Assembly (NCBI GenBank): GCA_029762535.1
Contig: JARVGK010000029.1
Span: 1 to 37,560 of the forward strand
Reading direction: 5' to 3'
DNA length: 37,560 bases
Source: Thermoplasmatota archaeon
Lineage (GTDB): Archaea > Thermoplasmatota > Penumbrarchaeia > Penumbrarchaeales > Penumbrarchaeaceae
In this document: in pieces, positions 1-35,131 of the stretch
Layout of the letters: every line of letters begins with the position of its first letter
Position numbering within the stretch: the first letter of the stretch is position 1
Program-made: the position numbers and the translations under genes
The notes under the pieces: model-generated
Database searches by the model: none
Told to the model about the DNA's origin: nothing
The model's input: only the letters and a program-made list of their open reading frames with translations

Positions 1-283
1 GAAGCAGATCTCGAACACGTCTTAAGCTTCGATGAGAATTCTCTTTCTTTAGCTCAATGATCTTGTTCGCAACTTCATCTGGAACAGGAAGGGAATTCCC
101 GCGAGGTTTGTTCAGCAATCCTTTAATCCCTTCTTTATCAAATCTGGTTATCCAGCTCTTCATGGTCTTCCAATCGACCTGGGCATCCCTTGCTGCTTGT
201 GATATGGATTTGTCCCCGTGTTTCACTTCGAGAACGTTTTTCAAACGATACTGGACGGTCTTATTGTCGTAGATACTCTGCAT
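1..283 (-). CDS. Transposase, N-terminal helix-turn-helix part (partial)
   Basis: Translation of the minus strand from the ATG at 283 stays open to the window edge (94 codons). It begins MQSIYDNKTVQYRLKNVLE and continues with a helix-turn-helix of the type SISQAARDAQVDWKTMKSWI. This is followed by RFDKEGIKGLLNKPRG, the usual linker after the first HTH in IS481/IS3-like transposases, and then a second helical segment (KENSHRSLRRVRDLL). The catalytic DDE domain would lie off the left edge, so activity cannot be judged. A 71-codon plus-strand reading frame overlaps it and is a shadow. The family assignment rests on motif style only; other HTH-DDE families (IS630, ISNCY) are possible. Confidence 0.75.
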   Translation of the reverse strand, partial: MQSIYDNKTVQYRLKNVLEVKHGDKSISQAARDAQVDWKTMKSWITRFDKEGIKGLLNKPRGNSLPVPDEVANKIIELKKENSHRSLRRVRDLL

Positions 284-324
284 GGGTTACCCACCTTGAA
301 GATTGGATGGGTAATCCTGGCTCC

Positions 325-488: not shown

Positions 489-1949
489 TCAGTCCCGTCG
501 GATCGACCGGATCAACCTCTCGTTCTTATCATATATGTTGGCGATAAGGGGCATGGATCCTGGCATGGAGTGGGTGGCACAGCCGAAGCAGGGATCATAG
601 GCGCGGAAGGCCATCTCGACCATGTTGAGGAGGCCGTCGTTGACCTCACCCTTCTTGATCAGGCCTTTGGCGGCGTCCCTCACGGACATGGTTATGGCTC
701 CTGCGTTGTTCGTTGTTGCGACGATCAGGTTCGCGGTCTTTATCAGGCCCTGCTCGTCCACGTCGTAGTGGTGGATCAGGGTTCCCCTGGCCGCCTCGAT
801 CACGCCGAAACCTTCTCCCGGCTCTCCCACGGGGTTCTTGATATGCGTCGATGTGATCTCCTCGTCCGTAGCGAGTTCCAGGGCCCTCTCCGCTGCGTAA
901 AGGAGCTCTATCAGTCTAGCCCAGTGGAAGGCAAGCGTCGAATGTACGGGCCTTCCGCCCAGGGTCGAGTAGAACCTCTCGAACTCCTTCTGGGCAAGGG
1001 GGGTGGCCATTCCTTCGGCGGCGTTCAGTCTGCCGAGAGGTCCCACCCGGTAGAATCCCGATCCTGCTCCGTCCGTGAAACCGCTATATCCCACCCTCTT
1101 GAGGTAGGGGAATTTCATGTAGCTCCATTTCTCCACCCTTTCGGCGATCTCCTTCTGATAATCTTCGACCGGGAACTTGATGAGTTCCCCCCCGGAGGGA
1201 TCCGTGACCCGGATAAGACCGTCGTAGAAGTTCAGCTTATCATTTTCATCCACAAGTCCCATGTTGTATGTCTTGAGCTGATACGGTCCCTTGGTGATCA
1301 GTTCGACATAATCCTTGTTCTTCAGGACGATGTCCTCGAAGAGCTGGAGGGAGAATTTGGCGAACTCCCGGGAGGATCCCGCCATCATCTCGATCTCTTT
1401 TCTCTCATCCTCGTTCAGTCCTTTGGAGACGCCTCCGGGCAGCCCGTTGACGGGATGTGTCGCTTTTCCCCCGAGGATCGCCGTGATCCTCTGTCCGTAA
1501 GCGCGGTGCTTGATCACTTCCTTTCCGATCTCCAGCCCCGCCTTCTCGATCACTCCCAGTATGTTCCTCTTTCCCGGGGGAGCATCCGGGCCCACGACGA
1601 AGTCAGGCCCTCCCAAAAAATAAAAATGGAGTATGTGGTCGTATATGATGTAGCCGCAGTACATCAGTTCCCTCAGCTTCTTCGCGGCGGAGGGGGGATC
1701 CACCTTGAAGGCCGAGTCGAGCGCCTTCGCCGCGGCAAAATGGTGCGCAACGGGGCACACACCACAGATCCGGGATGTGATCTGGGGCATATCTTCCGCT
1801 CTGCGCCCCTGGGCGAACTTCTCGAACCCTCTCAGCTCGGGGATCTGAAGATATGCGTTATCGACATCCCCCGCATCGTCGAGGAATATGTTGATCTTGC
1901 CGTGGCCTTCAAGCCTTGTTATGGGATCGATCACTATTGATGTAGTCAT
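489..1949 (-). CDS. mvhA: F420-non-reducing [NiFe]-hydrogenase large subunit MvhA
   Basis: Large catalytic subunit of a cytoplasmic group 3 [NiFe]-hydrogenase that makes or takes up H2 and exchanges electrons with Hdr through MvhG and MvhD. The 486-residue protein starts MTTSIVIDPITRLEGHGK, the normal N-terminus of the family. Both nickel-binding motifs are intact: RICGVC with Cys62 and Cys65, and DPCFGCATH with Cys454 and Cys457. I chose the ATG at 1949 because it overlaps the mvhG stop as ATGA and begins at the family N-terminus; longer frames run into mvhG. It is the last gene of the 14-gene minus-strand cluster. No membrane segment is seen, which fits a soluble enzyme. The direction of catalysis in this organism (H2 evolution during acyl-CoA oxidation) is inferred from context. 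Confidence 0.95.
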   Translation of the reverse strand: MTTSIVIDPITRLEGHGKINIFLDDAGDVDNAYLQIPELRGFEKFAQGRRAEDMPQITSRICGVCPVAHHFAAAKALDSAFKVDPPSAAKKLRELMYCGYIIYDHILHFYFLGGPDFVVGPDAPPGKRNILGVIEKAGLEIGKEVIKHRAYGQRITAILGGKATHPVNGLPGGVSKGLNEDERKEIEMMAGSSREFAKFSLQLFEDIVLKNKDYVELITKGPYQLKTYNMGLVDENDKLNFYDGLIRVTDPSGGELIKFPVEDYQKEIAERVEKWSYMKFPYLKRVGYSGFTDGAGSGFYRVGPLGRLNAAEGMATPLAQKEFERFYSTLGGRPVHSTLAFHWARLIELLYAAERALELATDEEITSTHIKNPVGEPGEGFGVIEAARGTLIHHYDVDEQGLIKTANLIVATTNNAGAITMSVRDAAKGLIKKGEVNDGLLNMVEMAFRAYDPCFGCATHSMPGSMPLIANIYDKNERLIRSIRRD

Positions 1950-2926
1950 GGGATGACCCTCCTTTTGATAAGAGCAGAGGGAAGACCGTACTTGTAGAAT
2001 GTCCCTACAGGGTCCACCACCCCGTCGAGGAGCTTCTCCAGATCCTCGTCGGTCAGCGTTTCCTCGTCCTCGATCCCCAGGATCGAAGCGAGAGCCGAGA
2101 TCATCTTGCCTCCCTGATCGAGGGAGTTGGGCGTAGGCCCCCCGCAACCGGTGCAGGGCATGTAAGCATCCATGCACGGACCTCCGCACCCTCCGCGGGT
2201 GGCGGGCCCCATGCAGAGGATCCCCTGCTCGAGAAGACATTTGTCATCGACCTTCTCCACTTCGTAGATCCTCCTGACCTTTGCGATCCTCTTCTCGGAG
2301 CGCTCGAACCTGCACTCGTCGCATACGGATTTGGCCGGAGCTATCACCGACCCTTTAGGAGGGAGATCCCCTTTGATGATGGCACCGACAGCTTGCAGGA
2401 TCAATTTCGTAGGGGGTGGACATCCGGGTAGATAATAATCGACATCAACTGTCTGGTCCAGGGTCTTCACCGTGTCGAAGAACACCGGGATGGTCAATTC
2501 ACCCTCTTTCACCTCGCTTGAGGGCTCGGGTTCGACCCCCTCGGGGTTCTCAATGGAGGCGTTCTCGTGATAGACGGTCTCGAACACGCCTTTCTTATTG
2601 GACAGGTTCGCAAGCCCGGGGATCCCGCCGGTGGCCGCGCAGGATCCGAAGGCCACCAGCACCTTGGACTTCTTCCTCAACAGGTGCGCCAGATGCTCCT
2701 GCTCGGAATTTCTTATCGCGCCGTTGAAGAAGCAGACGTCGATATGGCCGTCCGGCATCTCCTCGACGTCCTTGTACTTGGTATCGATGGCCACAGGCCA
2801 GAACAATATGTCCGCCGCCCCCGCGACGGTCAGGATCGCCTCATCTATGTCAAGGACCGCGATCTCGCATCCGCCGCAGCTTGCCGCCCAGTAGAAGGCG
2901 AACTTCAATTTCTCGGTCACTGGCAT
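1946..2926 (-). CDS. mvhG: F420-non-reducing hydrogenase small subunit MvhG
   Basis: Electron-transfer subunit of the Mvh hydrogenase; it carries iron-sulfur clusters between the NiFe site in MvhA and the [2Fe-2S] protein MvhD. The 326-residue product opens with the proximal-cluster motif CGGC (Cys17, Cys20), followed by GSCAATGG and PGCPPPT. The C-terminal half carries the Cys-rich medial and distal cluster region (VCDECRFE, then CLLEQGILCMGPATRGGCGG and CTGCGG). No twin-arginine signal is present, so it is cytoplasmic. Its start overlaps the end of mvhD by 10 bp and its end overlaps mvhA by 4 bp, which suggests coupled translation. All expected ligands appear present. Confidence 0.94.
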   Translation of the reverse strand: MPVTEKLKFAFYWAASCGGCEIAVLDIDEAILTVAGAADILFWPVAIDTKYKDVEEMPDGHIDVCFFNGAIRNSEQEHLAHLLRKKSKVLVAFGSCAATGGIPGLANLSNKKGVFETVYHENASIENPEGVEPEPSSEVKEGELTIPVFFDTVKTLDQTVDVDYYLPGCPPPTKLILQAVGAIIKGDLPPKGSVIAPAKSVCDECRFERSEKRIAKVRRIYEVEKVDDKCLLEQGILCMGPATRGGCGGPCMDAYMPCTGCGGPTPNSLDQGGKMISALASILGIEDEETLTDEDLEKLLDGVVDPVGTFYKYGLPSALIKRRVIP

Positions 2927-3336
2927 TCCCCCTTGAGAGGATTGGGACCCAGTTCCTTGAGGGTCTGTACGAACTCGGTCACCACATCAGCGAACTTCTG
3001 TCCCTCGGAAGCGGATATGTAATCGAAGCGGACCCTGCGGGGATCCATGTTGAGGTCCTTCAAGAGCCTCTGGATCAATTTCATCTTTCGGTTTGTCTTG
3101 TAATTGCCCGACTGGTAGTGGCAGTCACCGGGATGGCACCCGGCCACGAGCACTCCGTCTATGCCCTCCTTGAGCGCATCCAGGACGAAGACTGGATCCA
3201 CCCTTCCGGAGCACATCACCCTGATCGATCTCACGTTGGGAGGATACTTCAAACGACTCGTCCCGGCGAGGTCCGCTCCGGCATATGAGCACCAGTTGCA
3301 CAGGAACGCTACCACAACGGGTTCAAAATCCGACAT
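2917..3336 (-). CDS. mvhD: Hydrogenase/Hdr linker subunit MvhD (copy 1)
   Basis: Small [2Fe-2S] protein that docks the Mvh hydrogenase onto HdrA and passes electrons to it. The 139-residue protein begins MSDFEPVVVAFLCNWCSYAG. The five family cysteines are visible: Cys13, Cys16, Cys42, Cys67 and Cys72 (in the GCHPGDCHY motif). The start at 3336 is chosen because it begins at the family N-terminus and overlaps the stop of the upstream hdrA as TGATG; the longer open frame is an artefact running into hdrA. It lies between the double-length hdrA and mvhG, the classical hdrA-mvhD-mvhG-mvhA order. A second mvhD at 8211-8636 is a close paralogue. Confidence 0.95.
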   Translation of the reverse strand: MSDFEPVVVAFLCNWCSYAGADLAGTSRLKYPPNVRSIRVMCSGRVDPVFVLDALKEGIDGVLVAGCHPGDCHYQSGNYKTNRKMKLIQRLLKDLNMDPRRVRFDYISASEGQKFADVVTEFVQTLKELGPNPLKGECQ

Positions 3337-6401: not shown

Positions 6402-6405
6402 CTTT

Positions 6406-7092
6406 TCACTTCCTCGTGTATCCTTCCTTTATGGCGAGCTCGCGGATGGCGTACATCAACTGCGGTATCTTTACCCCTTGAGGGCACTCGTCGAGACATC
6501 TGAAATGGGTGGAGCAGATCTCCACGAACCTGTTGTCGAACACCCTGTCCTTCATGCCGAGAAGGGTCCCCCTTATGACCTTCCTGGGGGAATAGAGTGG
6601 GTCCAGGTCCCTCTCCGGGCAGCCAGCGGTGCAGGTCCCGCAGGCAAAGCAGCTGTATATGTCACGCCCGGCATCGGTCTCGGCGAGCCTGTACTTGAGA
6701 GAGGGGTCCATGCCCGATGCCCTCTTCGTGCCGGTCAGGTCCTCCTCTAGCTCCTCCTTGAGCCTCTCCTCCCGTATCTGGTTCATCAAGCCCTTGACGT
6801 TGACCTTCTGGGGGCATTTCTCGAGGCATGTGTAATGCGAGGAGCATATCCATACGAACTCAGATGAGAGGACCTCCTCCCTCAGACCAAGTAAGGCCTT
6901 GCGGATAATGGTGCGGGGGTTCCACTCCTCATGGACCTCCTGCTCCGGACATCTAGCCGTGCAGGAACCGCAGGCGAAGCATTTCAAAATGCCCTCCCCT
7001 CCCTCGATCCCGGCTATCTCGAACTTTAATTGTGGGTCAAGATCCCTGGAATCGATGCCGTTCATCTGAGGGTCCCCCTCGTCTCCGTTCAC
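6406..7092 (-). CDS. Tandem HdrC-like iron-sulfur protein with Cys-to-His changes in both halves
   Basis: Two HdrC-type units lie in one 228-residue chain. HdrC normally carries two [4Fe-4S] clusters and links HdrA to HdrB. In each half the first motif is complete: CFACGSCTARCP (Cys38, 41, 44, 48) and CFACGTCTAGCP (Cys148, 151, 154, 158). The second motif of each half has His in place of the second Cys: CSSHYTCLEKCP (Cys83, His86, Cys89, Cys93) and CSTHFRCLDECP (Cys193, His196, Cys199, Cys203). The codons are plain CAT in both cases. No HdrB gene accompanies this copy. The start may be the GTG at 7092, directly after the upstream stop, or the ATG at 7065, which has a GGGGGA tract just upstream. 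Confidence 0.85.
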   Translation of the reverse strand: MNGDEGDPQMNGIDSRDLDPQLKFEIAGIEGGEGILKCFACGSCTARCPEQEVHEEWNPRTIIRKALLGLREEVLSSEFVWICSSHYTCLEKCPQKVNVKGLMNQIREERLKEELEEDLTGTKRASGMDPSLKYRLAETDAGRDIYSCFACGTCTAGCPERDLDPLYSPRKVIRGTLLGMKDRVFDNRFVEICSTHFRCLDECPQGVKIPQLMYAIRELAIKEGYTRK

Positions 7093-8199
7093 CTAATGGT
7101 CCCCCACGCTCTCGAATTCCTCTTCCTTGTAGAATATCATGGGCAGCTGGTCTTCGAGATCCCTTCCCGGGATGTACTCGAACTCCTTCTGGGCGTTCTG
7201 TGCGATGGGTATGATGATGTCCATCAACGGGATGTTCGCGGGGCAGGCCTGCTCGCACAATCCGCACTGGACGCATGACAGTATCATGTGGTTGAACCTG
7301 GTGATGTGGAACAACAGCGTGTCCGTAGGGGTCTTGAAGGACCCCTTGGACCCCGCCTTGGAGACGTACTTGTGCGCCTCCATGTTGAAGACCGCCGAAT
7401 CGAACAGGCACTCCTTGCAGTAGCAGATCGGGCATGCTTTCATGCAGTTATGGCAGTTTATGCAGGATTCGAAGAAGTCCGCGATCTTACCCGAGCCCTT
7501 GATATCGGAATGTTCCGCTATATGCTTCTCCCGGCTCCTGTCGGCGGCCTCCCTTACCTCAGAGACCGCCTTCTCCCTGGACCCATCGTCCTTGAAGGCA
7601 TCAAGCCCCATGCCCTCGAGAAGGGCCTGCCCGGCCTCGGTCTTCCCAGAGACCAGGATCCCTTTTTCCAGGTCCATGCCGAACGTCCCGATGACGATAT
7701 CCGCCCTGCCGGGAATGGGGTCAGCGCACGACCTGCAGGCGCTCCTTAGGAATTTCTCCCTCTCCTTGGGATCGAGTACCGCCGATGAGATGTCCTTATC
7801 CCCGGGGAAGTTCGAATACGTGTTCAGGTCGAAGGTCCCGGGGCAGTCCACCCCGATAAGTACCAGGTTCGCCGGGTCCGCCTGCTTGAGCTTGAATAGC
7901 TCGGTCAGCGCCCTCAGCTCACAGTTCCTCATGATGGCCGCGATGGGATCGTCGGAGCCTCGGGTCTTGGTGATCCTGGATAGGATCGTCGCCGTTGATA
8001 CAGGCATGAGAGGTGTGAATACATCCGAGCGCATCTTATCCGGATCGGAGACCAGCACCGGAAAGGCGGATCTCCCGTTGGGGGTGGTCTGAAGGGCCAG
8101 CACCGCTTTGACCTTGCCCGATGAGAGCAGTCCCTTCAGGAAGTCGTTCACGGCGCCGGAGGCGCCTCCTTTTCCAACAGGCAGTATGTGTTCGGTCAT
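7093..8199 (-). CDS. FrhB/FdhB-like F420-binding iron-sulfur flavoprotein
   Basis: Beta-subunit family of F420-reducing hydrogenase and F420-dependent formate dehydrogenase; these proteins pass electrons between iron-sulfur clusters, FAD and coenzyme F420. The 368-residue product has the family core (RNCELRALTELFKLKQA near 91, IGVDCPGTFD near 115, ACRSCADP near 154, the ADIVIGTFGMD stretch). Its C-terminal cluster region has CINCHNCMKACPICYCKEC (246-264) and CVQCGLCEQACP (309-320). I chose the ATG at 8199: it has a strong GGAGGTGA site 5 bp upstream, whereas the longer frame uses a GTG overlapping that site. It lies between mvhD copy 2 and the tandem hdrC, suggesting it is the electron outlet of that module. 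F420 as partner is inferred from family; NAD(P)H is possible. Confidence 0.85.
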   Translation of the reverse strand: MTEHILPVGKGGASGAVNDFLKGLLSSGKVKAVLALQTTPNGRSAFPVLVSDPDKMRSDVFTPLMPVSTATILSRITKTRGSDDPIAAIMRNCELRALTELFKLKQADPANLVLIGVDCPGTFDLNTYSNFPGDKDISSAVLDPKEREKFLRSACRSCADPIPGRADIVIGTFGMDLEKGILVSGKTEAGQALLEGMGLDAFKDDGSREKAVSEVREAADRSREKHIAEHSDIKGSGKIADFFESCINCHNCMKACPICYCKECLFDSAVFNMEAHKYVSKAGSKGSFKTPTDTLLFHITRFNHMILSCVQCGLCEQACPANIPLMDIIIPIAQNAQKEFEYIPGRDLEDQLPMIFYKEEEFESVGDH

Positions 8200-8210
8200 T
8201 TCCTCACCTC

Positions 8211-8636
8211 CTACACGTCCCACCTCGCCCTCATGGGGTTGGGTCCAAGCTTCTTCGTCTCATCCACTATCTCCTTCACTGTATCGGCGAACCTCTGCCC
8301 CTCGGAGGCGGAGATCCATCTGACCCAGATCCTCTCCGGCTCCATGCCTAAGGTGGTGAGTATGTTCTTCAAAAGGACCATTCGCCTCCTGGCCTTGTAA
8401 TTGCCGTTGAGATAATGGCAGTCCCCCAGATGGCAGCCGCCGATCAGAACAGCGTCGGCCCCTTCGAGTATCGCCCTGTTCACATACATCGAATCGACCG
8501 AACCGGAGCACATTACCCTTATGACCCTGATGTTGGGGGGATATTGTATCCTTGATGTCCCTGCAAGGTCAGCTCCGGCATACGAACACCAGTTGCACAG
8601 GAACCCGACCACCCTTGGCTCGAAATCTTCCGTCAT
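8211..8636 (-). CDS. mvhD: Hydrogenase/Hdr linker subunit MvhD (copy 2)
   Basis: Second [2Fe-2S] MvhD protein, 141 residues, very similar to copy 1 along its whole length, with Cys14, Cys17, Cys43, Cys68 and Cys73 all kept. It follows the GltD-containing hdrA (12 bp apart, with GAGGTGAT as ribosome site) and is followed by the FrhB/FdhB-like gene, not by hydrogenase subunits. The pair hdrA-mvhD therefore occurs twice in this cluster with different downstream partners. I infer that this copy links HdrA to the FrhB-like flavoprotein. It could also serve as an alternative dock for the MvhAG hydrogenase. Confidence 0.94.
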   Translation of the reverse strand: MTEDFEPRVVGFLCNWCSYAGADLAGTSRIQYPPNIRVIRVMCSGSVDSMYVNRAILEGADAVLIGGCHLGDCHYLNGNYKARRRMVLLKNILTTLGMEPERIWVRWISASEGQRFADTVKEIVDETKKLGPNPMRARWDV

Positions 8637-8647
8637 TTGATATCACC

Positions 8648-11600: not shown

Positions 11601-13162
11601 GCGAATATGATGATGTCGCACGGGATGTCAAAAGCGGAACCCTCGATGGGGATGGGCTTCTTCCTCCCGCTCGGGTCCGGCTCGCCCAATTCCATCCTCT
11701 CACAGGTGAGGCATGTCTGGCATGCGTTCTCCACTACCTCGAGGGGCGAGGTGAGTATCTCTATGCCTATGCCCTCCTCTCTGGCCTGCTGCACCTCCTC
11801 GAGATGGGCGGGCATCTCCTCCTCGGTCCTGCGGTAGATGACCGAGACATCGGCGCCGAGCCTCTTCGCGGACCTTGCGCAGTCCATAGCGACGTTGCCG
11901 CCGCCGACCACGAGTACCCTCTTCGAGGCCAGTTCGTTCTCCTTGGCGAGGTCCGAATTCACCTTTTTCAGGAACTCTATGCCCTGCATGACGCAGTCCG
12001 GGCTGCAGCTGTTCACGGGTATGTCCTTGGCCTTCCATGAGCCGATGGCCGCGACGAAGGCCTCGAAGCCCTCGGAGGTGAGTCCTTCGAAGGTGACCTC
12101 CTTTCCGAGCCTTTTACCATACCTTATCTCGATATCGTTCTCCTTCAAAAGGAGGTCTATCTCCTTCTGCAGGTGATCGTTGGGGAGCCTGTAGCCGGGC
12201 ACCCCGAATCTCATCATTCCTCCCGCCTTATCCTGGGCTTCGAATATGGTGACGGAATAGCCCATTCTCGAGAGGTCGCTGGCAGCGGTCAATCCGGCGG
12301 GGCCTGAACCGATAACGGCCACCTTCCTTTTGCCCCCTCTCTCCTTCGGCTCCTGCCGGCCTTCCACCTTTGACAGGTTCTCGAGGCGATCCAGGGTGGC
12401 TTTTTCGACCTCATCCCAATGATCATATGCCCAATCCGCTATGAATCGCCTTATCCTGCATATCGATATGGGCTCCTCGATATCCTTCCTGTTACACTCG
12501 GTCTCGCAGGGATGATAGCATATCCTCCCCATTGAACCGGGAAGTGGAACGCTCTCTTTGATGAGCAGGTAGGCCTCGGCGAACCTCTCCTGGGAAGCCA
12601 GGGCCACGAAGGCATGGGCGTTGAGCCCCGCCGGGCAGGCGATCCTGCACGGCGATCTCTCCCCATCCTTGTCTATGGCGAAGATGTTCGGGATCGCCTG
12701 CGGGAAGGGCTGGAATATCGCATGCCTCTGGCCAAGCCCTTCGTCGAACTCGGAGGGCATCAGGACGGGGCAGTGCTCCACGCAGTCGCCGCAGCCGTTG
12801 CATTTCTCCATGTCCACGTATCTCGGGCGCCTCTTTATGGTCACCTGGAAGTTCCCCACATCTCCTTTTACCGAGCCGATGTCCGCGTTGGTGATGATCT
12901 CGATGTTGCGGTGCCTGCCGGTATAGACGAGCTTGGGGGCGAGAATGCACATGGAGCAGTCGTTCGTCGGGAACGTCTTGTCGAGCTTGGTCATGGTCCC
13001 GCCTATCGAGAGCCCGCTGTCCAAGAGATAGACCTTGAACCCGGCATCTGCCAGGTCCAGTGAGGACTGTATGCCCGATATGCCCCCTCCGACGACGAGG
13101 ACCGATCCCTGGACATCGCCGGAGGCGGTCGGAGCAGATGCGTCGATCCCTTTTTCCGACAT
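8648..13162 (-). CDS. hdrA: Giant HdrA with a GltD-type NAD(P)H oxidoreductase module inserted inside it
   Basis: A 1504-residue flavin/iron-sulfur protein built on the same two-unit plan as the 1021-residue HdrA, plus about 500 extra residues. Unit 1 begins [10 protein letters not shown] (21-30), carries TFPTNDCSMCIL (63-74) and CNGCGDCVEHCP (121-132), and is then interrupted at about 170. The insert has the GltD N-terminal cluster motifs (CRIACP at 172, GRICYHPCETECNR at 212), an FAD site (VIGSGPAG at 283), a nucleotide site (VVGGGNVAMD at 418, with YRR at 443) and a C-terminal Cys cluster (CLNCSGCCDCMQCVEHC, 652-668). HdrA sequence resumes there. Unit 2 starts at about 953 (GVFICHCGIN), with FAD motif VIGGGIAG at 1095 and ferredoxin motifs at 1439 and 1470. 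The ATG at 13162 matches the paralogue's start and follows GAGGTGGT. Use of NAD(P)H is inferred. Confidence 0.88.
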   Translation of the reverse strand: MSEKGIDASAPTASGDVQGSVLVVGGGISGIQSSLDLADAGFKVYLLDSGLSIGGTMTKLDKTFPTNDCSMCILAPKLVYTGRHRNIEIITNADIGSVKGDVGNFQVTIKRRPRYVDMEKCNGCGDCVEHCPVLMPSEFDEGLGQRHAIFQPFPQAIPNIFAIDKDGERSPCRIACPAGLNAHAFVALASQERFAEAYLLIKESVPLPGSMGRICYHPCETECNRKDIEEPISICRIRRFIADWAYDHWDEVEKATLDRLENLSKVEGRQEPKERGGKRKVAVIGSGPAGLTAASDLSRMGYSVTIFEAQDKAGGMMRFGVPGYRLPNDHLQKEIDLLLKENDIEIRYGKRLGKEVTFEGLTSEGFEAFVAAIGSWKAKDIPVNSCSPDCVMQGIEFLKKVNSDLAKENELASKRVLVVGGGNVAMDCARSAKRLGADVSVIYRRTEEEMPAHLEEVQQAREEGIGIEILTSPLEVVENACQTCLTCERMELGEPDPSGRKKPIPIEGSAFDIPCDIIIFATGQEIDPAGLEKSGLKFSKGAIDCDPVTLRTSLEKVFSAGDAVTGPASAVEAIGAGHEAAISVDRFLNGEDLIEGREKAEEKGAPIPDSTMRARTPRRIPQAIDMEKRTSTFSEIESTYTLMEAVEEAKRCLNCSGCCDCMQCVEHCQRGAVDHEMEEVEQTLNVGAVILSPGFDNYRPRKGGSLGYGLYPNVLTSIEFERMLSASGPYKGHVKRLSDGEEPKRIAWLQCVGSRDESCDHKYCSSVCCMYAIKEAVIAKEHVPGLETHVYFMDMRSFGKDFDRYYERAQSEYGVVFRRSRIPRIEQDRATKNLKVRYIDEDGNVRTDEYDMIVLSIGLQPCSTMEDLAKAFEINLNEYGFMETDPFVPVETGRPGIYASGSASEPKDIPESVTQASAAAAAVAGDIFGARNTQVTEKEYPRERDVGNEFPRTGVFICHCGINISGVIDVRKVVDHARGLPFVAYADDETFTCSADSLERMKERIIELGLNRIVVASCTPRTHEPLFQDTLREAGLNPHLFEMVNLRDQNSWVHRNYPEMATSKAIESVNMGVAKVNELRSVSHHRIPVINEALVIGGGIAGMNAALSIADQGFKVHLLEREMELGGHMKEIFLGASDEDPQLYLRDTEEAVRDHPNIDLRLGSELEDISGYVGNFTSRIRKGDAVDVVQHGVVVVATGANPYEPKEYLYGSDERIMRQRDLERDIHKGAPYLEDLKEVVMIQCVGSRNDEHPYCSRICCSNALKNAIHLKELNPAVNVYVLYRDIRTYGFREDSLYARARALGVLFLHFEEGREPNVSLEDGSLNVQTRDHVLLRDMTLHPDRLVLSTGIVPKENSTLAQKLKVPLNADGFFSEAHMKLRPVDFSGDGIFLAGTAHSPRFIEEAVLQGKASASRASTIISREYLETKGNVAKVISRSCAGCQLCLQICPYDAIDFDEDKKVVIVNEILCQGCGACAAICPSGTSQQSSFTKKQIISMIDACLD

Positions 13163-15120
13163 CATACCACCTCGTCTATCATCCTTACAAGCTGCCGTTT
13201 GGTGTAGTTCTTGTGCGTGCATGCGTTCGAGGGGCAAGAGGATACGCATGCGCCGCAGCCGGCGCATAGGGCCTCGTCAACCTCCGCGATCCCTGTTACA
13301 TCGTTGATGTTCCTGGCGGAGTAGGCGCAGACCTCGACGCATACGCCGCAGCCCACGCATACCTCGGGATCCACCCATGCGATCAGCGGCTCGTTCTCAA
13401 GCTCCTCCTTGGACAATATCCCGACGGCCCTGGAGGCCGCGCCGCAGGCCTGCGATACGGTATCGGATATGTCCTTCGGGCCCTGGGCGCAGCCGGCTAT
13501 GAACGTGCCGTTGACGAAGGTGTCCATGGGGCGCAGCTTGGGATGTGCCTCGAGTAGGAAACCGTCGGAGCTCCTCGAGAGCTTGAAGGTCCTGGCGAGT
13601 TCCTGGGAGTCGGAGCGGGGGACCAGTGCCGGGACGAGCACGACCATGTCAGACCTTATCTCGAAGAGCTTGTCGGTGGTGGTGTCGAATATGTCGATGA
13701 GGAACCCCTCCTTCTTGACCCTGACCTCCGACGGGCGTCCCCTGAAGAAGTTCGTGTTCTTCGACCTTATGTTGCGGTAGAACTCCTCGTAGCCCTTGCC
13801 GAAGGACCTGATGTCGGTGTAGCAGATGTTGATCTCAACTTCCTCACCGAGCTTCTCCCTGAGAAGGTAGACGTGTTTGAGGGCGGACATGCATCCTATC
13901 CTGCAGCACCAGGAGCATTGGGTCTCGTCCCGGGACCCGACGCAGAGTATGAAGGTGACGGAGGTCGGATGCTTCCCTGACGACGGAAGGACGACCTCGC
14001 CGTGGGTCGGGCCGGAGGAGCTTATCAACCTCTCCAACTGCATTGTCGTGATGACGTCGGGGGACCTTCCGTAACCGTATTCGAACATTCTATTGGCCTC
14101 AAGGAGATCGTATCCGGTGGCGATGACCACCGCCCCCACGTTGAGTTCCAATGTCTCGTCCTTCTGGGAGAAGTCGATGGCGCCCGGCTCGCACGCCTTG
14201 ACGCACAGGGGGCCGTCCCCGCACCTGCCGAAACGGAGCATGAGGCAGCTGTTCGGGTCTATGGTGCTTTTGAGGGGGACGGCCTGGGGGAACGGGATGT
14301 AGCAGGCGGAGCGCTTGCCCATTCCCATGTTGAACTCGTCAACGACCCTTCCGGCGAGCCTGCATGCGCTGGCGCATTCGTTGCAGCCGGTGCACTTGTC
14401 GATATCGACGTATCTGGCCTTCTTCCTCACCTTCACCTTGTAGTTGCCGATGGAACCCTCTATCGATTCGACCTCCGCATAGGTGAGGAGGTCCACGTTG
14501 GGGTGGTGATAGACCTCCATCATCTTGGGGGTGAGTATGCAGGAGGAGCAGTCAAGTGTGGGGAATGTCTTGTCCAGCTGGGCCATCCTTCCGCCGACGG
14601 TCGGCTCCTTCTCGACGAGATGGACCTTGAACCCCGAATCGGCGATGTTGAGGGCTGCCTGGATCCCAGCGATGCCTCCGCCGACAACGAGCGCTTCCGG
14701 CGTGACGGGCGTTCTGGAGGCCTCCAGCGGCTCGAGGAGAGCCGCCTTGGACACCGCCGAGCGGACCAACGCCTTGGCCTTCTGCGTGGCCTCTGCGGGG
14801 TCCTCGTGGGCCCAGGAGCACTGCTCCCTTATATTGGTTATCTCCACGGTGAAGGGGTTGAGGCCTCCGTCCTTCGCCACCCCGCGGAAGGTGTGCTCGT
14901 GCATCCTGGGTGAACACGAGGCTATGACGATCCCGTCCAGATCGAACTCCTTTATGGAGTCCTTGATGAGGTTCGCGCCCGGGTCCGAGCACATGTACTT
15001 GTAGTCCTTGGAAATTACGACCCCTGGCAGCTTCGAGGCGTATTCGGCGACCTCCACGACGTCCACCTTCGATGCTATGTTCAAACCGCAGTGGCAGACG
15101 AAGACGCCAATTTTGTTCAT
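13162..15120 (-). CDS. hdrA: Single-length HdrA, CoB-CoM heterodisulfide reductase subunit A family
   Basis: A 652-residue HdrA of the usual methanogen size and domain order. It has an N-terminal domain (KIGVFVCHCGLN, with Cys69 and Cys101 further on), the FAD motif VVGGGIAG (145-152) and the TFPTLDCSSCILTPK signature (185-199). The ferredoxin insertion has CTGCNECASAC at 243 but then RLAG instead of the usual P, and CGDGPLCVKAC at 300. The C-terminal ferredoxin has CVGCGVCVEVC at 588 and CAGCGACVSSCP at 619. The start overlaps the hdrB stop as TGATG and the end overlaps the giant hdrA start. With hdrC and hdrB directly upstream it completes a classical hdrCBA set placed immediately after etfBA. 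No organism-specific heterodisulfide is implied; the HdrB substrate is unknown. Confidence 0.92.
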   Translation of the reverse strand: MNKIGVFVCHCGLNIASKVDVVEVAEYASKLPGVVISKDYKYMCSDPGANLIKDSIKEFDLDGIVIASCSPRMHEHTFRGVAKDGGLNPFTVEITNIREQCSWAHEDPAEATQKAKALVRSAVSKAALLEPLEASRTPVTPEALVVGGGIAGIQAALNIADSGFKVHLVEKEPTVGGRMAQLDKTFPTLDCSSCILTPKMMEVYHHPNVDLLTYAEVESIEGSIGNYKVKVRKKARYVDIDKCTGCNECASACRLAGRVVDEFNMGMGKRSACYIPFPQAVPLKSTIDPNSCLMLRFGRCGDGPLCVKACEPGAIDFSQKDETLELNVGAVVIATGYDLLEANRMFEYGYGRSPDVITTMQLERLISSSGPTHGEVVLPSSGKHPTSVTFILCVGSRDETQCSWCCRIGCMSALKHVYLLREKLGEEVEINICYTDIRSFGKGYEEFYRNIRSKNTNFFRGRPSEVRVKKEGFLIDIFDTTTDKLFEIRSDMVVLVPALVPRSDSQELARTFKLSRSSDGFLLEAHPKLRPMDTFVNGTFIAGCAQGPKDISDTVSQACGAASRAVGILSKEELENEPLIAWVDPEVCVGCGVCVEVCAYSARNINDVTGIAEVDEALCAGCGACVSSCPSNACTHKNYTKRQLVRMIDEVV

Positions 15121-15998
15121 CAGGCCCCCTCCTTGTCCTTTTGAAGGAGGCGCTCCACCGGGCTCTGGTTGAGATCGAGCCCCAGCTCCCCGGGGGGGAT
15201 CCCGAATGCGAGCCCCATCAGCTGGGTGAGATATACGACGGGCACCTCGAGCTTGGCGCCGACCGTCTCCCCCGCCTTCTTCTGTTTGGAGTCGTACATC
15301 TTGTGGCACCAGGGGCATGCAAGGACCATACCGTCGAACCCCTGCTCCTGCACGGCCTGCAGTTTCTGCCCGGTCTTTGTCACTGCCGTATCAGGATGGA
15401 CCGGCAGTACGGGTCCTCCGCAGCAGTCAAGCTTCTCGGCGTAATCGTTGGAACGGGCCCCGATCGCCTCGAGTATCCTCTCCATCTTCTGCGGGTTCTC
15501 GGCATCGACCGGGCGCCCGAGTTCCGTCGGGCGAATGATATGGCACCCGTAATGGGTGGCCATGTCCGGGGATCCAAGATCGACCTTTACCATATCTTTC
15601 ACCTTTTCCAGCCCTATGTGGTCGTGAACGAGATCGATCGTATGGTACAGAGCCACGCTCCCGTCGTAATCGAGCCCCTCGGCCGACAGCTTCTCATTGA
15701 GCCTGCGGGCCATATCCTCCTCCTCTTTGACGATCCTGTTCGCCTCGCTCAAGGCGAGGTGGCACATGGGGCAGGGGACCAGCGCGTCCAGCCCCTCCTT
15801 CTTAAAGACCGCTAGGGATCTTGTGGAGAGGGTGAGGGTAAGCATCTGGTTGATGCTCTTCAGGGGCTCGCCGCAGCATGAGAGGTCCATGACATCGACG
15901 ATCTCCACACCGAGCATTGGCAGGACCTTCCTCAAGGAGATCTCGTATCCGTACTGCTCGGTGGGCATCAGGCATCCGGGAAAAAGTCCAAGCCTCAT
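15120..15998 (-). CDS. hdrB: Heterodisulfide reductase subunit B family (two CCG domains)
   Basis: HdrB carries two non-cubane [4Fe-4S] clusters that reduce the disulfide substrate in methanogens. The 292-residue product has both CCG cysteine sets complete: Cys9, Cys41-Cys42, Cys76, Cys79, and Cys152, Cys192-Cys193, Cys228, Cys231, matching the family pattern of about C-x(31-39)-CC-x(33-36)-C-x2-C. The start at 15998 is preceded by AGGAGGGGTGAG and begins MRLGLFPGCLMP, the family N-terminus; the 96-residue longer frame runs into hdrC. This is the only HdrB in the window, although there are three HdrA and two HdrC genes. The real substrate is open: no methanogenesis genes are seen here, so it may act on another disulfide, quinone-like or protein partner, or simply relay electrons from ETF. 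Confidence 0.94.
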   Translation of the reverse strand: MRLGLFPGCLMPTEQYGYEISLRKVLPMLGVEIVDVMDLSCCGEPLKSINQMLTLTLSTRSLAVFKKEGLDALVPCPMCHLALSEANRIVKEEEDMARRLNEKLSAEGLDYDGSVALYHTIDLVHDHIGLEKVKDMVKVDLGSPDMATHYGCHIIRPTELGRPVDAENPQKMERILEAIGARSNDYAEKLDCCGGPVLPVHPDTAVTKTGQKLQAVQEQGFDGMVLACPWCHKMYDSKQKKAGETVGAKLEVPVVYLTQLMGLAFGIPPGELGLDLNQSPVERLLQKDKEGA

Positions 15999-16009
15999 CT
16001 CACCCCTCC

Positions 16010-16537
16010 TCAGACCTTCTCCATGGCCACGGTCATCACGGTCATCTGGAACTTCGCCGGGTCCGTCGGGACGGATATCGGGGGGAGGCACAATCCCTCC
16101 CTCGTCCTGGTCTCCCCGCCCCTTGTGGTGACCGTCTGGACGTCCTGGATCAGGCCCATTCCCATGGCCGAGGTCAGCATCGCCGTGTAGTCTCCCGGGA
16201 CCTCCTTGCCGGAGGCGACTGCAAGGTTCTTCAGCGCGAAGAGTATGTTCACAGGGGCCACTTTCTGAGGGCATCGCTCCTTGCACTTAAAGCAGCTGAG
16301 GCAGGTCCATATTATATCCGAATTGACCATCTCCTGGACGAGCCCTCTCTTCAAGAGGGCAACGATCCGGTGCGGCTCGAGCTCTAGGAGCTTGTGTGCC
16401 TCGCATCCCGCGGTGCATTTCGCGCATTGGTAGCAGTAGTAAGAGGCCTCTTCCCTCAGGCGCAGCAGACGCTCGTTGAGTTCCCTTCTCGCCTCTGTCT
16501 CCACCTCCGCCATGGAGGTCAAATCGGTGATGCCCAT
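16010..16537 (-). CDS. hdrC: Heterodisulfide reductase subunit C family
   Basis: A 175-residue iron-sulfur protein with two regular [4Fe-4S] motifs: CYQCAKCTAGC (Cys35, 38, 41, 45) and CLSCFKCKERCP (Cys79, 82, 85, 89). HdrC wires HdrA to HdrB. It is followed by hdrB with an 11-bp gap and preceded by etfA with a 45-bp gap. All eight cysteines are present, in contrast to the tandem HdrC at 6406-7092, where His replaces one Cys in each second motif. The C-terminal 85 residues carry no recognised motif. The start codon ATG at 16537 has a GGAG 8 bp upstream. Confidence 0.93.
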   Translation of the reverse strand: MGITDLTSMAEVETEARRELNERLLRLREEASYYCYQCAKCTAGCEAHKLLELEPHRIVALLKRGLVQEMVNSDIIWTCLSCFKCKERCPQKVAPVNILFALKNLAVASGKEVPGDYTAMLTSAMGMGLIQDVQTVTTRGGETRTREGLCLPPISVPTDPAKFQMTVMTVAMEKV

Positions 16538-16582
16538 TCGGATCGCTCCAGGATGTTGCTGTGACGGTTAAAGCGGTTGTGG

Positions 16583-17536
16583 TCATGCCTTTTCGTTAAT
16601 GGCCTGGACCAGCTTCGGTATTACGGTGTACAGGTCCCCCACTATTCCGTAGTCGACCACCTTGAAGATGGGGGCGTTCTCGTCCTTGTTTATGGCGACT
16701 ATGATCCCGGAGTCCCTCATTCCGGCCACGTGCTGGATCTGACCGGATATGCCACATGCGACATAGAGCTTCGGCTTCACCTTGTGACCGGATAATCCGA
16801 TCCAATGGTCCTCGGAAAGCCATTTCAGGTCGGCCGCGATCGGCCTAGAGCACCCCAGGGTGTAACCTTTCAAGGATTTGGCCAGGTCCTCGATGAGCTT
16901 GAGGTCCTGGCTGCTCTTGAAGCCCCTGCCGCACGAGACGATTATCTGCGCGTCCTCGACGTTCGCGCCCTCTGAGACCATGCTCTCGACCTTGAGGATC
17001 TTCGATCCGTACTCTCTGGGGGCTATGTCCTTCGTGACGATCTCTCCTCCCCTCGAGTCGTCCGGTGGAAGGGGATCGTAGGTCTTTGCCTGCACGGTGA
17101 CGATCGCGGGTTTGGACGCGAACCTCTCCGTTGCGACGCCGTTCCCGGAATAGACGATCCTCTCGGTGACGATCGAGCCGTCCCTGACGTAGAGCTTCCT
17201 CGAATCAGTGGATAGGCCTGCGTCAAGAAGGGATGCGAGCCTGGGAGCGATCTCCTTTCCCGTCTTGGTCGAACCGATCATGATGAGCGGGGGATCCACC
17301 TCTTTGCATATGGAGTGGAGTATCTCGGATCCCTCCTCGGCCTTGATCTCGTCCATGTCCTGTCCCGCCAGATACACCACCGAGGCCCCGGCGGCCACAA
17401 GCTTCCTGGCCTTTTCCTGGCCGTCCCGGCCGAGGACCACCGCCGATGGCTTGGAACCCAGTTCCCTGGATATCTCAACCGCTTTAGCAAGCATCTCTAT
17501 TGCTATCTTTTCGTTATCGGAGAATACAAAAACCAT
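16583..17536 (-). CDS. etfA: Electron transfer flavoprotein alpha subunit
   Basis: FAD-carrying subunit of ETF, which accepts electrons from acyl-CoA dehydrogenases. The 317-residue chain has the typical N-terminal alpha/beta domain (FVFSDNEKIAIEM). It also has the C-terminal FAD domain with CSRPIAADLKW, the GLSGHKVKPKLYVACGISG stretch, then QHVAGMRDSG, INKDENAPIF and DYGIVGDL, all hallmarks of EtfA. No extra ferredoxin domain is fused, unlike some archaeal EtfA. It follows etfB by 4 bp and precedes hdrCBA, which suggests that ETF delivers electrons to the Hdr proteins and not to a membrane ETF:quinone reductase; none is seen in the window. Confidence 0.95.
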   Translation of the reverse strand: MVFVFSDNEKIAIEMLAKAVEISRELGSKPSAVVLGRDGQEKARKLVAAGASVVYLAGQDMDEIKAEEGSEILHSICKEVDPPLIMIGSTKTGKEIAPRLASLLDAGLSTDSRKLYVRDGSIVTERIVYSGNGVATERFASKPAIVTVQAKTYDPLPPDDSRGGEIVTKDIAPREYGSKILKVESMVSEGANVEDAQIIVSCGRGFKSSQDLKLIEDLAKSLKGYTLGCSRPIAADLKWLSEDHWIGLSGHKVKPKLYVACGISGQIQHVAGMRDSGIIVAINKDENAPIFKVVDYGIVGDLYTVIPKLVQAINEKA

Positions 17537-17540
17537 CTTA

Positions 17541-18305
17541 TCACCCCAGCGCTCCGTCCTTCGATAGGTTCTCGGCCAGGTCCTTCACTGCCTGGTCCAG
17601 GTCGTCCTTGAATATCAAGTTCTTCCTGTTCATCGCAAGGCCCTTGACGTCCTCCAGAACGACCTTGGGGGCCAGGTCAGGAACGTTCATGTCCGGGGCC
17701 TTGAGGACCTTGATGGGCTTGGCCGCGGACCCGAGTATCTGCATTAGGCTGGGCAGCCTCGGGACGTTGATCTCCTTGGTCACTGTGAGGAGGACGGGGT
17801 ATGTGGATTCGGACACCACCCTCTTATCGCCCATGTTCCTCTCCGCCGTTATCTTTTCGGCTTCGGCATCTATCTTGAAGGCGTAGCTAAGCTGGGGTAT
17901 GTCCATCGCCCCGGCGATCCTGGGCCCCATCTGGCCCGAGAACATGTCTATGGACGCCTCGCCGCAGAGCACGAGGTCCACCTGACCCATGTCCTTTATC
18001 GCCTTCGCGATCAGATTGGAGATGACGTGATAGTCGGCACCTTCCGGTGGAACGATCAGCACAGCGTCGTCGGCGCCCATGGCGAGGATCTCCTTGATCC
18101 TCTCACGTGCGTCCTCGGACCCGACGGTTATCACCGTCACCTTTCCCTTGAGCTTCTCCTTGATCCTTATGGCCTCCTCGGCCGCGTTCTTGTCTATGTC
18201 GCTGATCTTCTTGGGGATCCCCTCAAGGACCGGCTTCCCGGTGGAAGGGTTCACCTTGATCTCGCCCACATCGACGACCTGTTTCGCACAAACCACTATG
18301 TTCAA
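17541..18305 (-). CDS. etfB: Electron transfer flavoprotein beta subunit (TTG start)
   Basis: Beta subunit of ETF, 254 residues. It begins (M)NIVVCAKQVVDVGEIKV and has the nucleotide-binding loop CGEASIDMFSGQMGPRIAG. The SGQM portion resembles the AMP-binding TGQM of canonical ETF more than the DGDTAQVGP loop of bifurcating EtfB. I therefore lean towards a non-bifurcating ETF, with moderate confidence. The start is a TTG at 18305: no in-frame ATG lies nearby, the family N-terminus begins exactly there, and AGGGAG sits about 8 bp upstream. An ATG 7 bp upstream is out of frame. It lies 16 bp after the acyl-CoA dehydrogenase gene in the same transcription unit. Confidence 0.93.
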   Translation of the reverse strand: MNIVVCAKQVVDVGEIKVNPSTGKPVLEGIPKKISDIDKNAAEEAIRIKEKLKGKVTVITVGSEDARERIKEILAMGADDAVLIVPPEGADYHVISNLIAKAIKDMGQVDLVLCGEASIDMFSGQMGPRIAGAMDIPQLSYAFKIDAEAEKITAERNMGDKRVVSESTYPVLLTVTKEINVPRLPSLMQILGSAAKPIKVLKAPDMNVPDLAPKVVLEDVKGLAMNRKNLIFKDDLDQAVKDLAENLSKDGALG

Positions 18306-18321
18306 TCCATCAACTCCCTTT

Positions 18322-19461
18322 TCATCTCAGCAGGCTGCCCGAGATCACCATCTTCATGACCTCCGACGTGCCTTCGTAAATGCCCGTGATCCTGGCGTCG
18401 CGGTAAAGCCTCTCGACCGGGTACTCCCTCGTGTATCCGTACCCTCCGAATATCTGTATCGCCTTGTCCGTGGCGTCCACCGCCGTTTGTGCCGAGTAGA
18501 GCTTGGCCATCGCGGCCTCCTTGGAGAACCTCTTCCCCTGGTCCTTCATGTAGGCGGCGTTCATGACAAGGAAGCGCGCGGCCTCTATTCTGGTCGCCAT
18601 ATCAGCGATCATCCACTGTATCGCCTGGAAGCTCGATATCGGCTTTCCGAACTGATGCCTCTGCTTGGAATAGGCTACCGATTCCTCCAGGGCGGCCTGG
18701 GCAATGCCGACGGCCTGGGCGGCGATCCCGATCCTGCCCCCGTCCAGGGTGGACAGGGCGATCTTGAAGCCCTCCCCCTCCTTCCCCAGGAGGTTCTCCT
18801 TGGGGACCTCCATGTCCTCGAATATTAGCTCGGAGGTCATGGACGCGTTGATGCCTATCTTCTCGAATATGGAGCCGACCTTGTATCCCTTGAAATCGCT
18901 CTCTATGATGAAGGCGCTTATGCCTTTGGGGCCCTTTTCCCTGTCCGTGACGGCGAAAGCGATTATTATCCCCGCCTTCGGACCGCTCGTTATGAAAGTC
19001 TTTGTCCCGTTGAGGATGTAATGATCGCCCTTGAGCTCAGCCGTTGATTTCATGGCACCAAGGTCCGAACCCGCGTCAGGCTCGGTCCCGCCGAAAGCGC
19101 CTATCTTCTCGCCCCTGGCGAGGATCGGCAGGTATTTCGCCTTCTGCTCCTCGGTTCCGTATTGGATGATGGGCCAGGCGGTCAGGGAGTTGTGTACTGA
19201 TGTGACGACTCCGGTGGATGCGCATGCCCTGGAGATCTCCTCGATTATAGTGGCATACGTCACATGGTCAAGTCCCGGTCCCCCGTATTCCGCGGGTATG
19301 ATGGCGCCGAGGATCCCGAGCTCGGCCATCTTCTTCAATATCTCGTGGGGGTACTCCTCCTTTCGGTCCCTCTCGGCGGCACCGGGGGCGATCTCGCGTG
19401 CGGCGAACTCGCGGACCATGTTCCTGATCATGACCTGCTGTTCATTGAGCTCCAGAATCAT
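18322..19461 (-). CDS. Acyl-CoA dehydrogenase (short-chain/butyryl-CoA type), first gene of the Hdr cluster
   Basis: FAD enzyme that makes the 2,3-double bond in acyl-CoA and passes electrons to ETF. The 379-residue protein has the family pattern throughout: FGGTEPDAGSDLGA (FAD/substrate loop), FITSGPKAG, QAIQWMIADMATRIEAAR, QIFGGYGYTREYPVER and IYEGTSEV, with the catalytic base at Glu363. The start at 19461 gives the usual N-terminus (MILELNEQQVMIRNMVREFA); the longer frame reaches back through the promoter. It heads the operon that continues with etfBA and hdrCBA, which ties this dehydrogenase directly to the Hdr electron route. It is closely similar to the dehydrogenase at 28687-29826. The chain length of the substrate cannot be fixed from the sequence. 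Confidence 0.94.
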   Translation of the reverse strand: MILELNEQQVMIRNMVREFAAREIAPGAAERDRKEEYPHEILKKMAELGILGAIIPAEYGGPGLDHVTYATIIEEISRACASTGVVTSVHNSLTAWPIIQYGTEEQKAKYLPILARGEKIGAFGGTEPDAGSDLGAMKSTAELKGDHYILNGTKTFITSGPKAGIIIAFAVTDREKGPKGISAFIIESDFKGYKVGSIFEKIGINASMTSELIFEDMEVPKENLLGKEGEGFKIALSTLDGGRIGIAAQAVGIAQAALEESVAYSKQRHQFGKPISSFQAIQWMIADMATRIEAARFLVMNAAYMKDQGKRFSKEAAMAKLYSAQTAVDATDKAIQIFGGYGYTREYPVERLYRDARITGIYEGTSEVMKMVISGSLLR

Positions 19462-21322: not shown

Positions 21323-22999
<1,677 letters not shown>

Positions 23000-23009
23000 G
23001 GTGATGCCA

Positions 23010-35052: not shown

Positions 35053-35131
35053 GGGTTGGGAATTCTCTGAACTCTTCTCCCTTCCCGGCGGATCGCTCCA
35101 GGAACCTACTGTTTTTCGAGAAAGGTCCCCT

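Follow-up and report, generated by a model that had tools for sequence, protein, structure and literature searches.

The question raised by this locus is where the electrons of a saturated acyl-CoA could go in an anaerobic archaeon. The window, that is, the whole stretch of DNA analysed, covers positions 1 to 37,560 of a contig of 39,205 bases from a Thermoplasmatota genome of 2.96 Mb (G000; contamination 1.1%), and carries an operon in which genes for an acyl-CoA dehydrogenase and an electron transfer flavoprotein (ETF) are followed by genes for heterodisulfide reductase (Hdr) proteins and a [NiFe]-hydrogenase. The reading proposed here, to which a probability of about 50% is given, is that the products of this operon form one electron-confurcating system, which would combine electrons from acyl-CoA, delivered via ETF, with electrons from ferredoxin and pass them on to H2 or NAD(P)H. 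Related genomes and loci are referred to below by G and L numbers, and entries duplicating one contig (e.g., L151 and G002 C8, or L150 and G007 C101) are counted once. The homologues of window proteins that bear an organism name, among 120 listed of 1931, are from Thermoplasmatota or Thermoplasmatales.

The operon consists of 14 genes on the minus strand, from the start of acd at 19461 to the end of mvhA at 489, in the order acd, etfB, etfA, hdrC, hdrB, hdrA, hdrA::gltD, mvhD, frhB, hdrC2, hdrA, mvhD, mvhG, mvhA. This is the order and span given in the original prediction, and the tight spacing described there is also found, with 13 intergenic gaps of -10 to +45 bp after trimming of the starts. 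The Pfam matches within the operon include Acyl-CoA_dh, ETF, ETF_alpha, two CCG domains, FlpD (twice), Oxidored_q6, and NiFeSe_Hases, while NCBIfam names are given for four of 14 window proteins, all of them below the cut-offs of the models; HdrC, for instance, scores 70 bits against TIGR03290 (cut-off 160). An alternative hdrC, the 99-aa open reading frame at 16287-16586, was rejected in favor of the frame listed in Table 1. The "three Hdr modules" that had been claimed hold for the HdrA-type polypeptides, of which one is type I, one tandem, and one tandem with a GltD insert, and do not hold for the remaining subunits, since there is a single HdrB and only two HdrC proteins, the second being a tandem form. 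In hdrA::gltD, the stretches homologous to HdrA are residues 52-201, 693-904, 982-1156, and 1357-1538 of the protein, corresponding to HdrA residues 150-299, 301-512, 8-182, and 473-653, respectively.

The first line of evidence for a common function is the recurrence of this order in relatives, which also makes an assembly chimera unlikely, as contigs with overlapping identical ends repeat it. In G002, acd-etfBA-hdrCB-hdrA-hdrA::gltD lies on one contig, and a second contig starts at the end of hdrA::gltD and reaches mvhA; 141 bases at their ends are identical. The cluster of G003 is spread over three contigs, which cover acd to hdrC, hdrC to hdrA1, and hdrA1 to mvhA and share 30 and 87 identical end bases, and that of G006 on two contigs with 141 identical end bases in common; in all three genomes these ends were compared, not joined. 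A single contig of G001 spans hdrB to a cut mvhA, and hdrA1 is followed by mvhDGA in G001, G002, G003, and G005. Counting only the EtfA genes found by an EtfA search of 25 genomes, 17 are of the cluster type; nine of these have a co-directional hdrC behind them, five do not, and three lie on contigs that end too early (G004, G090, and G027). Within the family of the window, hdrC stands behind etfA in 7/7 informative genomes (G000, G001, G002, G003, G005, G006, and G007). Outside this family, the arrangement is found in G011 and in G020, where a hdrC2-like and a hdrB-like gene lie in between.

Further gene orders come from an HdrC scan (alignment A1) of named genomes, which gave 79 loci (L149-L227) from the best 80 of 571 matches, so that linkage rates taken from them are biased. 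Five of these loci (L191, L193, L194, L195, and L197) show the order acd-etfB-etfA-thiolase-3-hydroxyacyl-CoA dehydrogenase-enoyl-CoA hydratase-hdrC-hdrB (Pfam matches for L193), and the short L190, which begins within etfA, shows etfA-thl-hbd-ech-hdrC-hdrB. In L193, hdrA is directly followed by mvhD-mvhG-mvhA, which results in a minimal acd-etfBA-thl-hbd-ech-hdrCBA-mvhDGA operon without FdhB, GltD, or tandem HdrA. Loci L194 and L195 run on into hdrA::gltD-mvhD-frhB-hdrC2-hdrA1, and L197 into a NuoEFG form plus frhB. The HdrB proteins of L193, L194, L195, and L197 form a clade (99/97) together with that of Ca. Haladaptatiplasma halalkaliphilum (L192). Other arrangements include L160, with acs-etfBA, an Oxidored_q6 gene accompanied by complex-I-like open reading frames (judged by eye), a second HdrA-MvhD/HdrC/HdrB set, and hdrCBA-mvhDGA-hycI within 20 kb; L183 and L187, where ETF and Hdr genes lie nearby on opposite strands; and L165, related to the genomes of family f17, where mvhGA-mvhD ends about 6 kb ahead of hdrC. 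In G007, G003, and G072 (L114, L115, and L118; Pfam match for G007), acd and etfB are separated by a gene for an AMP-binding acyl-CoA synthetase, which the window lacks at this place, and gaps of similar size separate the two genes in G004, G087, G069, and G090.

Bacterial names also occur among the matching loci. In L224, a Spirochaetes record, hdrC-hdrB-hdrA-hdrA::gltD-mvhD-frhB-hdrC2-hdrA1 is found at 4.3-14.7 kb, with no ETF on its 14.7 kb, and the core Hdr module may thus cross domains. L177 is filed as a Fibrobacterota bacterium and has an archaeal-type etfBA-hdrCB set; its label is probably a binning error.

The second line of evidence concerns the ETF itself and the proteins able to accept its electrons. 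The signature missing from the EtfB of the window is present in 5/5 of the PDB EtfB alignments shown (10 chains matched). Among loci L053-L227, 44 EtfB rows of the cluster type, which include duplicate contigs and the row of the window, have E-A-[SA]-x-D-x-[FY]-[SA]-G-Q, whereas 13 other EtfB rows have D-G-[DN]-T; for EtfA, an N-terminal ferredoxin motif occurs in 12/14 rows of the other type, while cluster-type rows all lack it. A bifurcating ETF was discarded on these grounds: judging from both subunits, the ETF of the operon is unlikely to bifurcate, so the coupling would best be placed at HdrA. The EtfA search found only the operon gene in G000, and CCG domains were matched there only in the operon HdrB. 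ETF:quinone oxidoreductase (Fer4_ETF_QO, PF05187) had no match in G000, with a control matched in 3/14 genomes, and EtfD-like or ETF:quinone oxidoreductase proteins were therefore set aside as other acceptors. With one EtfA, one CCG protein, and no Fer4_ETF_QO, the predicted Hdr cluster is the sole recognizable ETF acceptor found in G000 at the sensitivity of these searches.

What HdrB would otherwise react with was also considered. The alpha subunit of methyl-coenzyme M reductase (MCR) was found in 0/25 genomes, the control being matched in two methanogens, and DsrC in 0/17 genomes, so two known HdrB partners, the MCR-derived heterodisulfide and DsrC, are missing and were dropped as candidates. 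Changes in HdrB itself have been looked at around Cys234, described as one of two bridging cysteines displaced by substrate in Hdr (PMC13083937). Nine loci (L187, L188, L189, and L192-L197) have Gly in its place, L187 being titled Euryarchaeota and the others Thermoplasmata, Thermoplasmatota, or Ca. Haladaptatiplasma. Linkage to ETF is seen in six of them (L187, with the two sets on opposite strands, L189, L193, L194, L195, and L197), and L188 is from the same isolate as L193 and has just 1 kb of upstream sequence. An extra HdrB near etfBA in L160 (8044-9120) lacks the bridging cysteines, and both of its CxxC pairs have lost the second cysteine (CALG and CPYG); among the remaining rows in which the site is resolved, none shows such a loss. 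The loss of Cys234 was rejected as a strict mark of ETF linkage: it characterizes a clade, does not occur in the family of the window, and is seen in L192 and L196.

The HdrB tree suggests an order in time for these observations. It was built from 47 chosen names, which gave 48 of 111 HdrB rows, leaving out rows of 250 aa or less, including a second, truncated L125 row; L183 (ETF within 10 kb on the opposite strand) was not grouped, and G020 is represented by the more divergent of its HdrB copies (L125), whose long branch falls outside the Thermoplasmatota group. The tree is midpoint-rooted, with a support of 92/98 for the Thermoplasmatota group, which is not starred, and of 63/77 for a single origin of either HdrB group. 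The early Thermoplasmatota branches consist of the rows with Cys234-Gly and, from family f1, those linked to ETF, and the unlinked rows lie inside a derived group (96/87) with two ETF-linked rows (G006 and L160) at its base. As ETF-linked HdrB proteins branch early and unlinked ones are derived, the tree suggests that the ETF-Hdr linkage is old and was later broken up.

From these parts, the following electron flow can be proposed. Electrons from acyl-CoA would enter HdrB through ETF, which would take the place of the CoM-S-S-CoB used by HdrABC-MvhAGD as high-potential partner. At the flavin of the type I HdrA, the putative site of confurcation, they would be joined by electrons from reduced ferredoxin; the exit would be to H2 through MvhD-MvhGA or to NAD(P)H through the GltD insert, or NuoEFG in relatives. 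The direction would be oxidative, because the operons of relatives hold genes for acyl-CoA synthetase, or for thiolase, hydroxyacyl-CoA dehydrogenase, and enoyl-CoA hydratase. Ferredoxin likely has a source of electrons in G000, given four matches to the gamma domain of two-oxoacid:ferredoxin oxidoreductases (POR family). With the acyl/enoyl-CoA couple at about -10 mV and ferredoxin at about -500 mV, the mean of about -255 mV is sufficient for H2 at roughly 1 Pa or less, for which acyl-CoA alone is far from sufficient. A more specific version of this flow, a soluble supercomplex with ETF as the high-potential leg of HdrA, making H2 from acyl-CoA and ferredoxin electrons and equipped with an exchangeable GltD or NuoEFG plug-in, is put forward only tentatively, its chances being somewhat short of even.

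Table 1. Operon features, with positions in the window
Feature	Position	Strand	Remarks
acd, acyl-CoA dehydrogenase, first gene	18322..19461	-	Pfam Acyl-CoA_dh_N/M/1
etfB, ETF beta subunit	17541..18305	-	without DGDTxQ[VI] of bifurcating ETFs; carries IDMFSGQM
etfA, ETF alpha subunit	16583..17536	-	no N-terminal ferredoxin motif
hdrC	16010..16537	-	175 aa; two CX2CX2CX3C clusters; 45 bp behind etfA
hdrB	15120..15998	-	two CCG domains, ten cluster cysteines all kept
hdrA, type I, full length, FAD and Fe-S	13162..15120	-	E 1e-214 to methanogen-complex HdrA
hdrA::gltD, tandem HdrA, GltD inserted in first half	8648..13165	-	1505 aa
GltD insert, NADP-type motif GGGNVAMD...YRR	11192..12664	-	at HdrA residue about 300
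mvhD, first copy	8211..8636	-	Pfam FlpD, 177.7 bits
frhB, FdhB-like subunit, C-terminal dicluster ferredoxin	7093..8199	-	best PDB matches: FdhB chains 9t1s_M, 8rvu_E, 7bkb_E
hdrC2, tandem HdrC, four cluster motifs	6406..7065	-	each half matches HdrC chains
hdrA, tandem, 1021 aa	3336..6401	-	
mvhD, second copy	2917..3336	-	Pfam FlpD, 191 bits
mvhG, [NiFe]-hydrogenase small subunit	1946..2926	-	Pfam Oxidored_q6
mvhA, [NiFe]-hydrogenase large subunit	489..1949	-	both CxxC motifs, RICGVC and DPCFGC

For the hydrogenase outlet, the best PDB match of MvhA is the MvhA of HdrABC-MvhAGD (5odc_F, E 4e-113); against VhuA it scores 415 bits (cut-off 800). Its two CxxC motifs are nickel motifs. Another contig of G000 (C25:3787-4173, L147) has a 150-aa frame with a C-terminal MvhA fragment, 89% identical. 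Behind mvhA, at the contig end (window 1-310), lies a frame that looks helix-turn-helix/transposase-like by eye; in G002 and G003, this place is taken by a HycI-like maturation protease.

The outlet to NAD(P)H is supported by the GltD domain inside the tandem HdrA. At the same site, G001, G005, G087, and others have NuoE, NuoF, and a NuoG-like N-terminus instead, with NuoE fused to the first HdrA piece and the NuoG-like N-terminus fused to the HdrA remainder (in G001, with Pfam matches to 2Fe-2S_thioredx, Complex1_51K, and Fer2_4). Among the chosen loci, and after removal of duplicates, GltD is found on 15 contigs, including L224, and in the window, which makes 16, and NuoEFG on eight; G011 (L126/L189) and L169 fit neither form, and L049/L050 (G027 and G016) were left out of this tally. 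Both versions coexist in genera g2 (G006/G001), g4 (G003/G005), and g42 (G075/G087). The motif GGGNVA[MV]D...YRR, of the GXGXXA form, is present in the window and in seven other GltD rows from six contigs, those being the rows matched by the search pattern. GltD would be an NADP-type module and NuoEFG an NAD-type one. A type III HdrA with inserted GltD has been described in ANME-1 and Bathyarchaeota, with a GXGXXG motif taken as NAD-type (PMC12054007), so the HdrA::GltD fusion itself is already known; for the exchange of GltD and NuoEFG, no description was found in the parts of the open-access literature consulted. Among protein expression levels tabulated for MBG-D archaea, 9,708 transcripts per million is given for a HdrA with the annotation "NADPH-dependent glutamate synthase beta chain-like oxidoreductase" (PMC6461988), which would be the same gene as hdrA::gltD.

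The third outlet, proposed in the original prediction as F420H2 through FrhB, is not supported. This protein is homologous to FdhB across both domains (E 7e-31 with 9t1s_M) and is, by its sequence, a FdhB-like flavin/Fe-S subunit. CofD had no match in G000 (its control exceeded the cut-off in 3/14 genomes), and CofH exceeded the cut-off in 0/25 genomes, with weak sub-threshold matches in 11. Because these F420-synthesis genes were not found, the F420 outlet was rejected and the subunit is read as FdhB-like. A frhB match with one in-frame TGA occurs at G087:C39:29712-30839 (L010).

Besides the oxidative flow proposed here, the same proteins could work in the opposite direction, with HdrA splitting electrons from H2 or NAD(P)H between ferredoxin and, via ETF and the acyl-CoA dehydrogenase, an enoyl-CoA. 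Precedent exists in Bcd-EtfAB, which bifurcates NADH electrons to ferredoxin and enoyl-CoA, and the reversibility of the beta-oxidation enzymes counts for this direction as well. So do the closest NCBIfam model of acd, acryloyl-CoA reductase (514 bits, below its cut-off of 640), and the further hydrogenase large subunits of G000 (contig 102, in a HydBGDA-like group; contig 29, ShyA-like; best equivalog models all below cut-off); the reverse direction is, moreover, the one reported for HdrABC-MvhAGD (PMC6687939). It is nevertheless considered unlikely, as the acyl-CoA synthetase between acd and etfB in relatives points to the activation of fatty acids for oxidation, and genes for methylmalonyl-CoA mutase adjoin acd. 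This divergent operon, at 21323-24343 on the plus strand, encodes the large and B12-binding subunits of the mutase and MeaB, is also seen near the cluster in relatives, and suggests propionyl- or branched-acyl-CoA as substrate.

HdrB may also work on a pool of thiols and disulfides that ETF only feeds or drains, which would leave Hdr-Mvh as a near-canonical heterodisulfide-type enzyme. To this, even less weight is given, although all ten HdrB cysteines are conserved in the window: neither MCR (25 genomes) nor DsrC (17 genomes) was found, Cys234 is gone from related, mostly ETF-linked HdrB proteins, and ETF is not known to react with small disulfides. A different disulfide, not identified by its authors, has been proposed in a non-methanogen (PMC9723716), which counts in favor of such a pool. 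A comparably small chance is left to an operon that is a unit of co-regulation only, where ETF, Hdr-GltD-FdhB, and Hdr-Mvh would be separate enzymes with no direct sharing of electrons. The separate loci of the f17 genomes and the core Hdr-GltD-FdhB set of Spirochaetes L224 agree with separate enzymes; against them stand the minimal operon of L193, the old ETF linkage suggested by the HdrB tree, and the single ETF of G000, for which no other acceptor was found.

Several observations weigh against a confurcating system coupled to ETF. In family f17, hdrC is not behind etfA in 5/5 genomes (G087, G050, G072, G069, and G024) with at least 6.7 kb of contig beyond etfA, and in G072, G087, G069, G090, and G024 the ETF, Hdr, and mvhGA-mvhD sets lie on three separate contigs. 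Parts lying unlinked in related genomes had been named as a possible refutation, and the outcome is mixed: ETF and Hdr are indeed unlinked in the five f17 genomes, and the tree places the ETF-linked HdrB copies early. The Cys234-Gly loci L192 and L196 have no adjacent cluster-type ETF, and, as the HdrB of the window keeps both bridging cysteines among its ten, a disulfide substrate is possible. CCG matches number 4 to 13 in each of eight relatives, which limits the argument of a sole acceptor to G000, and this assembly is itself incomplete (93.4%). No genes for thiolase, hydroxyacyl-CoA dehydrogenase, hydratase, or acyl-CoA synthetase lie within the operon of the window. Even so, the coupling of acyl-CoA oxidation to an Hdr-hydrogenase, as put forward in the original prediction, is likely right in kind, being supported by the adjacency of etfA and hdrC, the beta-oxidation operons of relatives, and the single ETF and CCG protein of G000.

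The closest known system is HdrABC-MvhAGD from methanogens (PDB 5odc), which is described as splitting electrons from H2 between ferredoxin and a disulfide (PMC6687939, PMC9723716). As in this system, a full-length HdrA, a ten-cysteine HdrB with two CCG domains, HdrC, MvhD, MvhG, and MvhA are encoded together. The operon differs in adding ETF, acyl-CoA dehydrogenase, two tandem HdrA, a tandem HdrC, FdhB, and a GltD port, and in that MCR, the maker of the CoM-S-S-CoB acceptor, was not found in the 25 genomes. The insertion of GltD into HdrA by the inserted ferredoxin domain is shared with the reported type III HdrA, whose Bathyarchaeota cluster likewise comes with mvhADG (PMC12054007); here, however, HdrA is tandem, no MCR was detected, the motif is GXGXXA rather than GXGXXG, and the site is exchangeable with NuoEFG. 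Complexes with FdhB (HdrABC-FdhAB; 7bkb, 8rvu, and 9t1s) also have an FdhB-like subunit beside MvhD and HdrA, but the window operon has no FdhA gene, and F420-synthesis genes were not found. Clusters of HdrA with FdhB but without FdhA are reported from ANME-1 (PMC9012536).

A transfer of electrons from ETF to an HdrBC homologue also has a precedent, EtfD of mycobacteria, an ETF:menaquinone oxidoreductase linking ETF to menaquinone; the model of its authors has a distance of about 11.6-12.5 A between the FAD of ETF and the two CCG clusters, and the entry cluster is given as unknown (PMC13083937). EtfD sits in the membrane and delivers to menaquinone (PMC13083937), whereas the HdrC and HdrB genes of the window are tied to HdrA and a hydrogenase. 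Bcd-EtfAB, CarCDE, and Ldh-EtfAB share the ETF gene pair, and Bcd-EtfAB the acyl-CoA dehydrogenase too; in the window, EtfB lacks DGDTxQ[VI] and EtfA an N-terminal ferredoxin motif, and coupling would instead be at HdrA. The operon is thus predicted to encode a variant Hdr-type bifurcating or confurcating system in which the high-potential partner is an ETF fed by beta-oxidation. No description of an ETF-Hdr-Mvh operon was found among the titles and beginnings of abstracts listed by searches of the open-access literature, and an earlier one may exist.

The rest of the window contains three further acyl-CoA dehydrogenase genes, at 28687-29826 (minus strand), 29987-31633, and 33898-35052 (both plus strand), whose products, if they use ETF, would depend on the one ETF found. 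A class III aminotransferase is encoded at 32077-33429, and a 1293-aa protein with DUF6259, CARDB, and several carboxypeptidase-regulatory-like repeats at 24350-28231 (minus strand). The G+C content drops to 0.479 at 34001-36000, compared to 0.53-0.61 elsewhere, and the open reading frames near this stretch, 35410-35940 and 35944-37527, are without Pfam match.

A 2025 study of Thermoplasmatota reported genes for fatty acid metabolism together with heterodisulfide reductase and called the feasibility of this metabolism unresolved (PMC12220078). The operon offers a concrete and testable answer to how saturated acyl-CoA electrons are disposed of in anaerobic archaea without respiration. It suggests that a flavoprotein can take over the "disulfide" leg of Hdr enzymes, and the swapping of GltD and NuoEFG modules at one position of HdrA would help to explain how bifurcating machines are built. 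The soluble supercomplex, if it exists, would provide archaea with a quinone-free and methanogenesis-free route for syntrophic fatty acid oxidation.

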